A DNA stretch of 64,000 nt from an uncultured bacterium (GTDB taxonomy: Bacteria; Patescibacteriota; Saccharimonadia; Saccharimonadales; Saccharimonadaceae), in contig CAILCF010000005.1 of NCBI GenBank assembly GCA_903832635.1, positions 124,001 through 188,000 of the forward strand. The letters are read 5' to 3'. A model generated the notes under the pieces. It worked only from the letters and a program-made list of their open reading frames with translations, was not told the DNA's origin and ran no database searches. The position numbers and the translations under genes are program-made. Shown piece by piece: positions 11,151 through 42,094 of the stretch. The first letter of the stretch is position 1, and the number at the start of each line of letters is the position of its first letter.

Positions 11151-11747
11151 TTAGGACTTTGTGATAACTTCGTCTATTAGACCGTACTTCTTGGCTTCTT
11201 CGGGCGTCATCCAGTAGTCACGTTCCATGTCTGATTTGATTTTTGCCAGTTTTTGACCCGTATTTTTTGCAAATAGCTCGGCTAGCATCTCTTTGACGGC
11301 CAGACCTTCTTTTAAGTCGATTTCCATATCCGTTACTTTGCCGCGAGTAGCGTGACTTGGTTGATGAATCATTACTTTGCTGTGAGGCAACGCAAATCGC
11401 TTGCCTTTTGTCCCACTGGATAGCAAAAACGCTCCCATACTAGCTTGCAAGCCAATACCTATGGTCTGGACATCGGGTTTGATATATTTCATCGTGTCAT
11501 AGATAGCCATCCCGTCGTAAACACTGCCCCCGGGGCTATTAATATATAGCTTGATATCCTTTTTGGGGTCTTCGTAAGCCAAATGAATTAACTGGGCAAC
11601 AACAATATTTGCCGTATGTTCGTCAACCTGTTCACCTAAGAAAATAATACGTTCATTAAGTAGTCGCGAATAGATATCATAGGCCCGCTCACCGTCGAAC
11701 GTTTTTTCGATTACTGTTGGAATCAAATAGTTTGTCGGTTTCATCAT
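11151..11747 (-). CDS. clpP: ATP-dependent Clp protease proteolytic subunit
   Basis: [65 protein letters not shown]. Confidence 0.97.
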
Positions 11748-11755
11748 ATATCTTT

Positions 11756-11761
11756 ATTATA
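11756..11761 (-). promoter_or_regulatory. -10 hexamer TATAAT 8 nt before clpP ATG (leaderless-type)
   Basis: TATAAT-AAAGATAT-ATG on minus strand; AAGACA 18 nt further upstream. Confidence 0.55.
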
Positions 11762-11818
11762 CAACAAACGAGCCATTAGTGTCTTAGCTGGTTTTAATGA
11801 ACGCATTTCGGCTATACA

Positions 11819-13240
11819 TTAATTTCGAGCATACATCAAGATGGTGTTAGAGGCATAGCCAGCGGCATAAATCGAAGTGCCATCGGGCGACATGATTAGA
11901 TCGTATGCACCCGCAGCGGCAACAGTTGGTGTTCCTAGTGCGGTCAAAACACCCGTGCTTGTATTCCGTTTATACATCGCAATCGTGTCAGACATATAGT
12001 TATCGGCATATACCGATATACCGTCAGATGATACGACAATTCCTTGAGGCTGTGTTCCCCCGGTAGCAATCGAAGGGGTGGCTAGAGCAGTCAGGGCACC
12101 GGTAGATGTATTACGGCTGTACATCGAGACAGAATATGACAGCATGTTTGTGACGTACACTGATGTCCCATCGTTTGATATCGCGATACCGTATGGTGCA
12201 GACCCAGTAGCAATCGTTGGGGTGGCTTGGGCTGTCAATGCACCCGTAGATGTATTGCGACTGTACATCGCGACTGTGTTAGAAAAGTTGTATTGGTTGA
12301 CGGTATAAACCGATGTGCCGTCAGGAGATACAGTGATACCGTATGGGTTTGACCCACTAGTGGTAATTGTCGGCGTGGCTAGCGCCGTCAAAGCACCAGT
12401 AGAGGTGTTGCGGCTGTACATCGAGATTGTGTTGGAATTGTAGTTAGAGGCGTAGAGCGATGTACCATCGGCAGATATGGCTATACACCATGGAGATGCT
12501 CCAGTAGCAATCGTTGGGGTGGCTAGCGCCGTCAAAGCACCAGTAGAGGTGTTGCGGCTGTACATCGAGATAGTATTATCGTTTGAATTAGAGGCGTAGA
12601 CTGACGTACCGTCGGACGATATGATGATACCTTGAGGCCATGTTCCAGTCGCTATCGTCGGTGTCGCTAAAGCGGTCAATAGACCCGTGCCCGTATCACG
12701 GCTGTACATCGAGATAGTTCTGCCGTTGCTGTTAGTCGTATAAACAGATGTACCGTCAGCCGATATTGCAACAGCGTGTGGGTTTGCACCAGCCGGTATC
12801 GTCGGTGTCGCCAAAGCTGCCAAAATACCAGTAGGTGGGACATAGACTGTTGGTGTAGTAGTGTCAGTAACGGCGTAAGCTAGTGAAGAAACGGTGTTAG
12901 TGATGACTAGTTTAAAAGATTTATATGGTGATGATGTGGTATAGGTATAGACATTTCCGGGTGTTACTTGAAGACAATAGCGTGTATCAGCCGGACCAAC
13001 CGGACAGCTTGATGTGTCAAGTGATTGCGGGAAAGTACCGTATTCCGTGTAGTATAACTTCAGCTTATTGGCGCTACCACTTAAATCATATTGCAAAGTG
13101 GCTATCCTTGCCTTTTGGGAGATACCAGTAAATACAACAATTGTTATTGCCGCCAGAATGCCGATTACAACTATAACTACCAGCAGTTCAACTATTGTAA
13201 AACCGGAAGAATTAGGGTTGCGCTTTAGAGCGGCTTTCAT
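11819..13240 (-). CDS. Type IV prepilin-like N-terminus fused to a seven-blade YncE/lactonase-like beta-propeller
   Basis: GFTIVELLVVIVVIGILAAITIVVF prepilin segment followed by seven ~45-aa repeats ALATPTIATG..P.GIAIS.DGTSVY..N...NTISMYSRNTSTG. Confidence 0.9.
   Translation of the reverse strand: MKAALKRNPNSSGFTIVELLVVIVVIGILAAITIVVFTGISQKARIATLQYDLSGSANKLKLYYTEYGTFPQSLDTSSCPVGPADTRYCLQVTPGNVYTYTTSSPYKSFKLVITNTVSSLAYAVTDTTTPTVYVPPTGILAALATPTIPAGANPHAVAISADGTSVYTTNSNGRTISMYSRDTGTGLLTALATPTIATGTWPQGIIISSDGTSVYASNSNDNTISMYSRNTSTGALTALATPTIATGASPWCIAISADGTSLYASNYNSNTISMYSRNTSTGALTALATPTITTSGSNPYGITVSPDGTSVYTVNQYNFSNTVAMYSRNTSTGALTAQATPTIATGSAPYGIAISNDGTSVYVTNMLSYSVSMYSRNTSTGALTALATPSIATGGTQPQGIVVSSDGISVYADNYMSDTIAMYKRNTSTGVLTALGTPTVAAAGAYDLIMSPDGTSIYAAGYASNTILMYARN
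12375..12570. repeat. Two identical 52-bp copies inside propeller blades (12375-12426 and 12519-12570)
   Basis: gtggctagcgccgtcaaagcaccagtagaggtgttgcggctgtacatcgaga occurs at both places, offset 144 bp. Confidence 0.9.
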
Positions 13241-13246
13241 ATCCAC

Positions 13247-13252
13247 AGTATA
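13247..13252 (-). promoter_or_regulatory. -10 hexamer TATACT 6 nt before pilin-propeller ATG (leaderless-type)
   Basis: TATACT-GTGGAT-ATG on minus strand. Confidence 0.5.
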
Positions 13253-13293
13253 GCATAACTGAATAAACAAAAGAAAAATATTCGAATTTTAGA

Positions 13294-14589
13294 TTAATTA
13301 TTTTTTTTAGTATTAAGTTCTACTAATCTGTCGACGGTTTTATCGGTCAGCAAACGGCTGGCGATGTCACGACGGACTTCGGGTTGTTCGAATTGTTTCA
13401 ATGCATCGGCATTGTTGGCATATTGTTGTTTAAACATTTCGATTCGCGATTCAAGTTCGGCGGTTGTGGCTTCGATTTTTTCGATTTTACTCAGTTCTGC
13501 CAACACTAACCCTGCCTGGACTCGTTTGGTTGCGACATCTTTGACTTCGGTTTCCAGCCACTTTTCTTTCGATTCAAAACCTTTGTTTTCCAGGTATTGG
13601 TCAAGTGTCGCGCCCTGATACATCAGGTTGTTTACAAAATCCTGTTCAATAGACTTTGCTTGATCGGCCACTAGAATTTCTGGAATAGGTACATTACTGA
13701 TTCCAACCAGCTCTGTAACCAGACTATCTTTGAGTTTCTCACCGGCTTCGCGTTGTTTTTGAGAATTTAGTTCACGTTTAATATCCGTCTTAAGTTCGTC
13801 CATTGTCTTGAACGGACCAGCTTTGGCGGCAAGTTTGTCATCAAGTTCAGGTAATTTTACTTCCTTGACTGATTTTAAAGTAGTCGTAAACGTGACTTTT
13901 TGCCCTTTTAGTTCAGGTGATTGATAGTCATCGGGAAATTTCAGGTCCAAGTCGAAAGTTTCACCGGCTTTATGTCCAACAATTCCCTCTTCGAACCCTG
14001 GAATAAATTGGTTTGAGCCCAGGGTAAGTGCGTAATCATTGCCAGTGCCACCGGGAAACGCAACGCCGTCCTTTTTACCAACAAAATCGATAACGGTTTC
14101 GTCGCCGATTTTTGCAACTCGTTTGACCTCTTTGCGCTCAGCTAAACTTTGCTGAATCCTTCCAATGGTTTCGGTAATTTCAGTCTCTATTACTGATACT
14201 TTTTCAGCTATTGATTTTAGTTTCTTGTAATCTCCCAGCTTTACAACTGGCAAAATCTCGGTTTCAGCTGTAAATTCCATCATTTCGCCAACAACGTATT
14301 TTTTAATTGCTACTGCCGGTCGGTCAAGTGCCTGTAATTTACTTTCGACAAACGCTTCGGCAACCGCTTTACTGATTGCGTTATCAATAACCTGTTCCTG
14401 TAACTTTTCCGGGTCAATATTTTTCGCAGCAACTGCAGTTGGCGCCTTGCCTTTTCTAAATCCGGCAACTTTAACATCCCGTGCAAGCTTTGATGTTGCA
14501 ACTTCCGTGGCAATTGCCAGTTCTTCTGCATTAAGTGTGATGGTTAATTCAACTTTTGTATCTGATAAGTTTTTTACGGTTGACTTCAT
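13294..14589 (-). CDS. tig: Trigger factor
   Basis: MKSTVKNLSDTKVELTITLNAEEL, VAGFRKGKAPTAV, PPIase region GDETVIDFVGKKDGVAFPGGTGNDYALTLGSNQFIPGFEEGIVGHKAGE. Confidence 0.96.
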   Translation of the reverse strand: MKSTVKNLSDTKVELTITLNAEELAIATEVATSKLARDVKVAGFRKGKAPTAVAAKNIDPEKLQEQVIDNAISKAVAEAFVESKLQALDRPAVAIKKYVVGEMMEFTAETEILPVVKLGDYKKLKSIAEKVSVIETEITETIGRIQQSLAERKEVKRVAKIGDETVIDFVGKKDGVAFPGGTGNDYALTLGSNQFIPGFEEGIVGHKAGETFDLDLKFPDDYQSPELKGQKVTFTTTLKSVKEVKLPELDDKLAAKAGPFKTMDELKTDIKRELNSQKQREAGEKLKDSLVTELVGISNVPIPEILVADQAKSIEQDFVNNLMYQGATLDQYLENKGFESKEKWLETEVKDVATKRVQAGLVLAELSKIEKIEATTAELESRIEMFKQQYANNADALKQFEQPEVRRDIASRLLTDKTVDRLVELNTKKNN

Positions 14590-40406: not shown

Positions 40407-42029
40407 TTAAATTTCCCGATTTATTTCATCCAGGGTTGTTTCCCCACGGAGGGCGGCCAATACACCATTTTCAAGCAGTGTGACCATGCCAGCATTTCTG
40501 GCAGTTGTTTCAATAATTTCAGTATGAACATCTGCTTCATCACCTCTTAGGAACCGCTGGATAGACTCTCCGACAACCATCTGCTCCATTATGACAATTC
40601 TGCCCGAAAAACCGAATGGCGAGGCTTCGCTAACAACCGGTTTCCAAAGTTTGAAATTCGTTAAGTCTGGTTTTTCAATATGTGACGGTAAATCTTTTAA
40701 TGCATCGATAACCCATTTTTTGGTTGCTTCATCCGGTTCATACTCTTCCTTGGTTGTATCATCCAATCTTCTGACTAGCCGCTGTGCAATAACCAGTCGT
40801 ATTGAACTGCTAAAGATTGGGTTTACTCCAATCATGTCAATCATACGACTAAACGCAGCCGATGTAGAGTTTGCATGGAAACTTGACAGCACTAAATGAC
40901 CGGTAATTGAAGCTTGTATAGCTGTCTTGGCAGTGTCTGCGTCTCTGATTTCGCCAACCATCACAACATCCGGGTCAAGTCGAAGAACTGCACGCAAACC
41001 ATCTGCAAAACTGTGTCCAGCTTCGGTATTAATTGGAATCTGAGTAATACCGGAAATGCCATATTCAACCGGGTCTTCCAATGTAATAATTTTGCGAGTT
41101 GACGTATTTAATGCATTGATAATACTGTACAGGGTTGTAGATTTACCACTCCCAGTAGGGCCAACCATTAAAACCATTCCCCGCGGATGACTGATAATTT
41201 CATCTATCTGTTGGCGTTCGGTTTTACCCATATGTAATCTATCCAGATTTAACATCGATTCATCAAAATTAAATAATCGGAGGACAGCATCCTGCCCATA
41301 TATTGTTGGGACGGTTTCAACACGAATATTCAATAGATGTGTTACTCCATCCTTGATAAGTTCTTTTTGCATATGACCTGATTGCGGTTCGGTTGATGCT
41401 GTCGATAAATTGGCCCGTGATGCAAGTGTACTTAGAATTACACGATAACGATCGTTATCCAAATCTGCAACCGGATGCAATACACCGTCAATTCGCATCC
41501 GAATACGCATATCGGTTCGCTGATTTTCAATATGAATGTCGCTGGCGTTAAGATGGTCTGCCTGGGTAATTAAATAGTCAAATATCTCATCACTACCAAC
41601 TGAGTTTAATGTTTTACTTACTTCCGCTATCGTGTTGCTATCACCTTCTTTGGCAATTTTTATATCATCATGAACGACTTTGATAACCGGATCATAACGG
41701 TCCATCAAAGCTTTATATCCGCTATTACTAATTAATAAAAATTGTACACTTTTCCCAATGTCATTATATTGCTTGGTTAGCTCGGAAATATATGACTGGG
41801 GTGTTTGAGTTGTAATCCCGAATTGCCACGTTTGACTTTCGTTACCACCTATAAGTGGTACAACCCTGTCTTTGTGCATCGTCAAAATGTCAATAACGTC
41901 CTTGACAAGAGGAATCGTTTTTTCAATATCGCGAGTATCAAAATATTGAATTCCTAAAATAGCCGCACGCTGTGTAGTTGTTTGTTCGTCCAGTTCGCGT
42001 TTTTCTTGTTGGACCTTGTCTTCTTCCAC
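40407..42029 (-). CDS. pilB: Type IV pilus assembly ATPase (PilB/GspE family), GTG start
   Basis: VGPTGSGKSTTLYSIINAL, TLEDPVEYGISGITQIPIN, LRAVLRLDPDVVMVGEIRDADTAKTAIQASITGHLV. Confidence 0.93.
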   Translation of the reverse strand: MEEDKVQQEKRELDEQTTTQRAAILGIQYFDTRDIEKTIPLVKDVIDILTMHKDRVVPLIGGNESQTWQFGITTQTPQSYISELTKQYNDIGKSVQFLLISNSGYKALMDRYDPVIKVVHDDIKIAKEGDSNTIAEVSKTLNSVGSDEIFDYLITQADHLNASDIHIENQRTDMRIRMRIDGVLHPVADLDNDRYRVILSTLASRANLSTASTEPQSGHMQKELIKDGVTHLLNIRVETVPTIYGQDAVLRLFNFDESMLNLDRLHMGKTERQQIDEIISHPRGMVLMVGPTGSGKSTTLYSIINALNTSTRKIITLEDPVEYGISGITQIPINTEAGHSFADGLRAVLRLDPDVVMVGEIRDADTAKTAIQASITGHLVLSSFHANSTSAAFSRMIDMIGVNPIFSSSIRLVIAQRLVRRLDDTTKEEYEPDEATKKWVIDALKDLPSHIEKPDLTNFKLWKPVVSEASPFGFSGRIVIMEQMVVGESIQRFLRGDEADVHTEIIETTARNAGMVTLLENGVLAALRGETTLDEINREI

Positions 42030-42082
42030 TATGCCTATTACTATAGCAAATTGCTTGTGGTTTTTATAGGGTAATGTGGTGC

Positions 42083-42088
42083 TACAAT
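42083..42088 (+). promoter_or_regulatory. -10 hexamer TACAAT 6 nt before trmH-like ATG (leaderless-type)
   Basis: TACAAT-ATCAAC-ATG. Confidence 0.45.
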
Positions 42089-42094
42089 ATCAAC

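Follow-up and report, generated by a model that had tools for sequence, protein, structure and literature searches.

A predicted type IV prepilin with a seven-bladed propeller head belongs to a genus-wide family of modular pilins in Saccharimonadales

The window, that is, the whole stretch of 64,000 nucleotides that was analysed, contains a gene whose product is probably a minor modular type IV pilin with a propeller that binds a ligand. The sequences show that this gene belongs to a lineage-specific repertoire, with many alternative heads on one type of carrier. Saccharibacteria are tiny host-dependent bacteria, and host recognition by Patescibacteria is poorly understood. The features analysed are the following (positions in the window):

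11819..13240, minus strand: modular prepilin with a 7-bladed propeller, 473 aa, ATG start, TAA stop (profile matches and AlphaFold2 model)
13202..13240, minus strand: class III leader MKAALKRNPNSSG (sequence and N_methyl PF07963 match), cleavage predicted after G13
13127..13201, minus strand: hydrophobic alpha1-N helix, residues 14-38, E at +5 (PF07963 match; helix 16-38 in the model)
12836..13201, minus strand: pilin carrier module, residues 14-135, common to more than 100 genes in the genus
11822..12826, minus strand: seven-bladed lactonase/YVTN-type beta-propeller, residues 139-473 (PF10282, fold model, blade anchors)
11151..11747, minus strand: clpP, flanking gene, adjacent to tig in ten relatives examined
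13294..14589, minus strand: tig (trigger factor), flanking gene
40410..42089, minus strand: third PilB/GspE-type ATPase (T2SSE) of the genome, without the MshEN domain

The open reading frame is intact from 13270 to 11819 on the minus strand, with the ATG start at 13240 and the stop at 11819, in agreement with the coordinates of the earlier note. The protein begins with MKAALKRNPNSSG/FTIVELLVVIVVIGILAAITIVVF, the slash marking the predicted cleavage site in the motif G/FTIVE, and shows the glycine at -1, the hydrophobic stretch and the glutamate at +5 of a class III signal. Furthermore, N_methyl PF07963 matched residues 10-33 with 30.6 bits against a curated cut-off of 21.2, and this score and the canonical sequence bear out the class III prepilin N-terminus claimed in the earlier note. 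The globular part of the pilin (residues ~40-135) was poorly modelled by AlphaFold2, whose alignment input consisted of three sequences.

Regarding the C-terminal part, Lactonase PF10282 matched from residue ~139 with 144 bits (cut-off 21.7), so that both profiles lie above their curated cut-offs in one protein and the pilin carries an extra C-terminal domain that is not specific to type IV pili (T4P), as modular pilins do. Seven D-G-x-x-V-Y blade anchors, at residues 161, 209, 257, 306, 356, 405 and 452, are spaced by 47-50 residues, and the AlphaFold2 model, made from only three sequences, has seven four-stranded blades, mostly with pLDDT 80-97. Strand 140-149, which comes from the N-terminal side, completes the last blade and closes the ring in velcro fashion. 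The earlier note had described a pilin-like segment followed by exactly seven repeats and had proposed a structure prediction and a domain-architecture search, and all of these results agree with its description. Foldseek and phmmer agreed on the nearest solved folds, the YVTN S-layer protein 1l0q and the 6PGL-like proteins 3fgb/4qrj, and both also matched repetitive or designed propellers. When 42 blades were aligned, most of the variability fell in the D-A and B-C loops, and the A-B and C-D turns were conserved; the usual topology of propellers, together with the DSSP assignment of the model, would put both kinds of variable loop on one face. The enzyme equivalogs did not reach their curated cut-offs (NF050136 57.7 against 500 bits, NF008258 54.5 against 370 and YncE 22.6 against 400), and we rejected an identity as a 6-phosphogluconolactonase or YncE equivalog because these scores are far too low. 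The Pfam searches gave no match to RCC1 repeats, nor to the PilC-type beta-propeller family (E <= 1), in the window protein.

The pilin-propeller fusion was also found by whole-protein search in other species of the genus, among them a named Lake Pavin Saccharibacteria MAG with two tandem copies that are 63% and 51% identical to the window protein over its whole length, and there is a second pilin-propeller gene in the window's own genome. The substitution counts of the window gene against the Lake Pavin copies were pN 0.25-0.35 and pS 0.64-0.81, and both of its halves are under purifying selection. An artefact of assembly or annotation, in which the 5' end of a pilin was joined onto an unrelated propeller, would fit the gene's place between clpP and tig, two neighbours in relatives, and its GC, which is higher than that of its flanks. 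However, the full-length orthologous fusions in other genomes, the second one in the same genome and the purifying selection in both halves leave it practically no chance, and the chimeric join that the earlier note had named as its refutation is excluded.

The two modules do not diverge in parallel. The second copy of the window's own genome differs from the window gene with pN 0.30 in the propeller and 0.52 in the pilin part, which matches over the first 68 residues only, whereas between the two Lake Pavin copies the pattern is reversed (carriers 0.11, propellers 0.33). These opposite patterns indicate that the pilin and propeller modules have partly separate histories. Another pilin-propeller gene (L063:3617-4594, genome G007) has only about four blades, either by blade contraction or by repeats collapsed in the assembly.

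Many matches of the whole-protein search, in the same genus, were confined to residues ~5-140, and the first ~130 aa turned out to be the shared carrier module. The loci fetched for these matches contained 127 prepilin-like ORFs in 19 genomes, 114 of which match the carrier at E <= 1e-5, and 102 of which have a C-terminal part of at least 70 aa. These C-terminal parts formed 20 similarity clusters, a clustering that depends on the BLAST threshold. Among the 100 heads scanned against Pfam we found FISUMP (21), LamG (17), Gly-rich (9), FGE (9), lactonase (6), CBM4_9 (5), DUF5122 propeller (3), fibrinogen-C (2) and RCC1 (1), the last one (L129) being an RCC1-propeller member of the window's own family. 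By these assignments the heads are mostly binding-type folds, predicted to bind carbohydrate or protein. On a tree of the carrier module, which is built from few alignment columns, the eight largest head types needed 37 changes, against a minimum of 7 and a shuffle average of 53.5 (46-58); the heads thus follow descent in part but have changed many times. In one genome (G026), contigs C1, C5, C10, C13, C15 and C16 end inside pilin N-terminal modules, which suggests that it holds near-identical repeated carriers.

The window gene is an orphan, outside any pilus operon. The earlier note had it standing alone between clpP and tig, and this is right for the locus; the gene itself is one member of the genus-wide modular pilin family. 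Likewise, the distant pilB is the only other pilus gene in the window, but the genome as a whole contains 13 other prepilin genes above the family cut-off in the profile search, one T4P locus on contig C1 (PilB, PilT, PilC, PilM and the prepilin peptidase) and a second one on C2 (PilB, PilC, PilM). The T4P machinery and prepilin peptidase that accompany modular pilins are therefore present in the genome. In the ten relatives in which both were seen, clpP and tig were adjacent, with gaps of up to ~500 bp and, in G004, one small ORF between them. An inverted repeat resembling the CIRCE operator was present in 6/7 of the short clpP-tig gaps inspected in relatives. No CIRCE-like site was found in the whole 64-kb window with up to 3 mismatches allowed, and where relatives have the repeat this genome carries the pilin-propeller (11748-13293); thus, heat-shock control of clpP may differ here. 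Three modular pilins lie beside tig in one relative and a recombinase-like gene in another, and the clpP-tig site seems to accept insertions.

Some of the sister genes are associated with diversity-generating retroelements (DGRs), whose diversification is typical of ligand-binding proteins. RT genes adjoin modular pilins in several genomes of the genus, and we found four VR-TR pairs, L172 (G007:C12), L171 (G016:C40), L174 and L175 (both G002), in which all the mismatches fall at template adenines (16/16, 18/18, 20/20 and 17/17). The TRs code for stretches rich in Asn where the positions vary, which is usual for DGR templates, and the neighbouring Avd-like proteins scored 78.6, 56.3 and 53.2 bits, all under the curated cut-off of 80. 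Three of the four VRs form the 3' end of an ORF of FISUMP or FGE type; two of these ORFs can be followed back to the pilin N-terminus, and the other runs off the contig. The target of the remaining pair (L174) is at a contig end, beyond view. These pairs mark DGRs, which would hypermutate pilin-borne lectin heads, and such diversified heads in sister genes support the reading of the window protein as a binder. In the window's own genome, an RT, a TR and an Avd-like gene lie at a contig end (G000:C5:234581-236454, L170), the target presumably being lost in the assembly gap. In the same genome, an RT adjoins a gene for a pilin with an FGE head, whose leader has a (CT)10 tract (G000:C2:93843-96513, L055). 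Its TR was found neither locally nor genome-wide and no Avd was seen, so an active DGR was rejected there and this one looks decayed. Regarding the window gene, there was no match to the TR region of its genome and no RT at its locus, and DGR control was rejected.

A further device was found in the leaders. In the whole genomes of the eight genus members that have any (CT)7+ tract (G000, G007, G012, G016, G019, G020, G024 and G025), 20 out of 20 such tracts were in prepilin leaders, 22-90 bases before the GFT codon and in open frame. Ten genes have a conserved ATGAAAAAGCGT-type start before the tract; in two of them this start shares the reading frame of the pilin and in the other eight it does not, with tract lengths that come from MAG consensus sequences and may be miscalled. 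This is the layout of slipped-strand phase variation, which is likely here and from which switching would be predicted. At least three genes (in G007, G012 and G016) have both the tract and an RT beside the same pilin. One locus (L063, G007:C10:86001-105000) contains about eight tandem modular pilins, six of them with CT tracts, and the conserved start is in frame in 1/6. Many CT tracts were also seen in G030, from another genus of the family (L224-L231), at least one of them before a non-pilin surface protein (L229), and they are possibly a separate phase-variable repertoire. No paper that connects Patescibacteria with phase variation was found in the open-licence literature. As for the window gene, neither its leader nor its promoter contains a repeat tract; repeat-tract control was rejected for it, and on its sequence it is a fixed member of the repertoire, with neither diversification device.

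How would such a protein work? The prepilin peptidase would cut the leader, the N-terminal helix would pack into the T4P filament, and the 130-residue pilin module would be the carrier that holds the propeller outside the cell, and the loops of one propeller face may bind a ligand on the host cell or on a surface. Other members of the repertoire would add a phase-variable leader, a retroelement-hypermutated lectin head or both. This reading of a ligand-binding minor pilin, for which the adhesin proposed in the earlier note remains the best description, although not as one odd stand-alone gene, follows the logic of modular pilins (PMC8179133) and of PilX2 in TM7x (PMC12206443), as well as the binding-type heads of the family and the loop variability of the blade alignment. 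The protein might instead, processed or not, be a prepilin-like anchor that stays in the membrane or in a short pseudopilus rather than in a long pilus. The gene is an orphan, its protein has general GspG/GspH matches and a large module may not pack easily into the body of a filament; nevertheless, PilX2 of TM7x behaves as a component of the T4P-2 filament system (PMC12206443) and PilB of Streptococcus sanguinis demonstrates that T4P can function with bulky modular pilins, which probably sit at the tip (PMC8179133), and we consider a mere anchor unlikely.

Quite unlikely, in our opinion, is that the propeller is an enzyme of the lactonase or 6-phosphogluconolactonase type, tethered by the pilin at the surface and acting on extracellular substrates. 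Propellers of the lactonase fold can be enzymes, PF10282 is named for lactonases and 6PGL-like proteins are among the nearest folds; against this, the equivalog scores given above are far under their cut-offs, the blades resemble one another as repeats do and no one distinct site stands out, and the same carrier bears mostly binding-type domains. The diversification devices of the sister genes would also fit immune or phage evasion, which would make the protein a decoy or variable surface antigen selected by phages or host defences and not an adhesin. Since the heads are known carbohydrate- or protein-binding folds and the window gene itself has no such device, this is very improbable.

Modular pilins, DGRs, repeat-tract phase variation and a saccharibacterial pilin-propeller are already known kinds, and what is new here is a lactonase-type propeller on a pilin. 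The literature searched, which excludes many subscription papers, apparently has no description of a shared carrier that combines swapped heads with phase-variable leaders and retroelement-mutated heads. We lean slightly towards a three-layer variation of the host-attachment pili of this genus, by head shuffling, phase switching at leader tracts and retroelement hypermutation of lectins, with the window propeller as a fixed head. If this is true, an episymbiont would possess a pathogen-like system of tropism and surface variation. The family provides a list of heads, all borne by one carrier, that are candidates for host binding.

Compared with known systems, the closest is PilX2 of TM7x (Nanosynbacter lyticus), a pilin with a 7-blade RCC1 propeller that belongs to the second T4P and is needed for normal host binding, which fell from ~10.6% to 4.6% of host cells when pilX2 was deleted (PMC12206443). 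Both are saccharibacterial pilins with a C-terminal seven-bladed propeller, and the two T4P loci of the window genome resemble the two-pilus layout described for TM7x in the same work. However, the propeller of PilX2 consists of RCC1 repeats and that of the window protein of lactonase/YVTN blades; the window protein has a canonical signal, whereas PilX2 is without a predicted PilD signal; and pilX2 lies in the pilA2 pilin cluster, the window gene as an orphan between clpP and tig. A different propeller has been grafted onto a pilin in another saccharibacterial lineage. More than 1,200 modular type IV pilins with 264 architectures have been reported (PMC8179133), and PilB and PilC of S. sanguinis likewise have a small pilin module with a grafted module, which binds there. 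Their modules are vWA or lectin instead of a propeller, and they differ from a genus-level repertoire on one related carrier with DGRs and repeat tracts in some members. A beta-propeller has also been proposed at the T4P tip for the PilC/PilY1 adhesins, although PilY1 is not a pilin and the PilC-type propeller family is absent from the matches of the window protein.

The retroelements of the sister genes are like known DGRs in having an RT, an Avd-like protein, a TR and a VR, the last being the 3'-terminal part of a C-type-lectin-like target. An earlier survey, as cited in PMC6642488, tied putative pilin structures to DGR targets of the DUF1566 type. Roux et al. described CPR clade-2 DGR targets as typically without a recognisable transmembrane or other conserved domain, and left open whether CPR DGR targets are membrane-bound (PMC8144416). 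The targets found here differ from those of known DGRs in that their anchor is a type IV pilin, and the pilin module therefore makes the question of membrane attachment directly testable.
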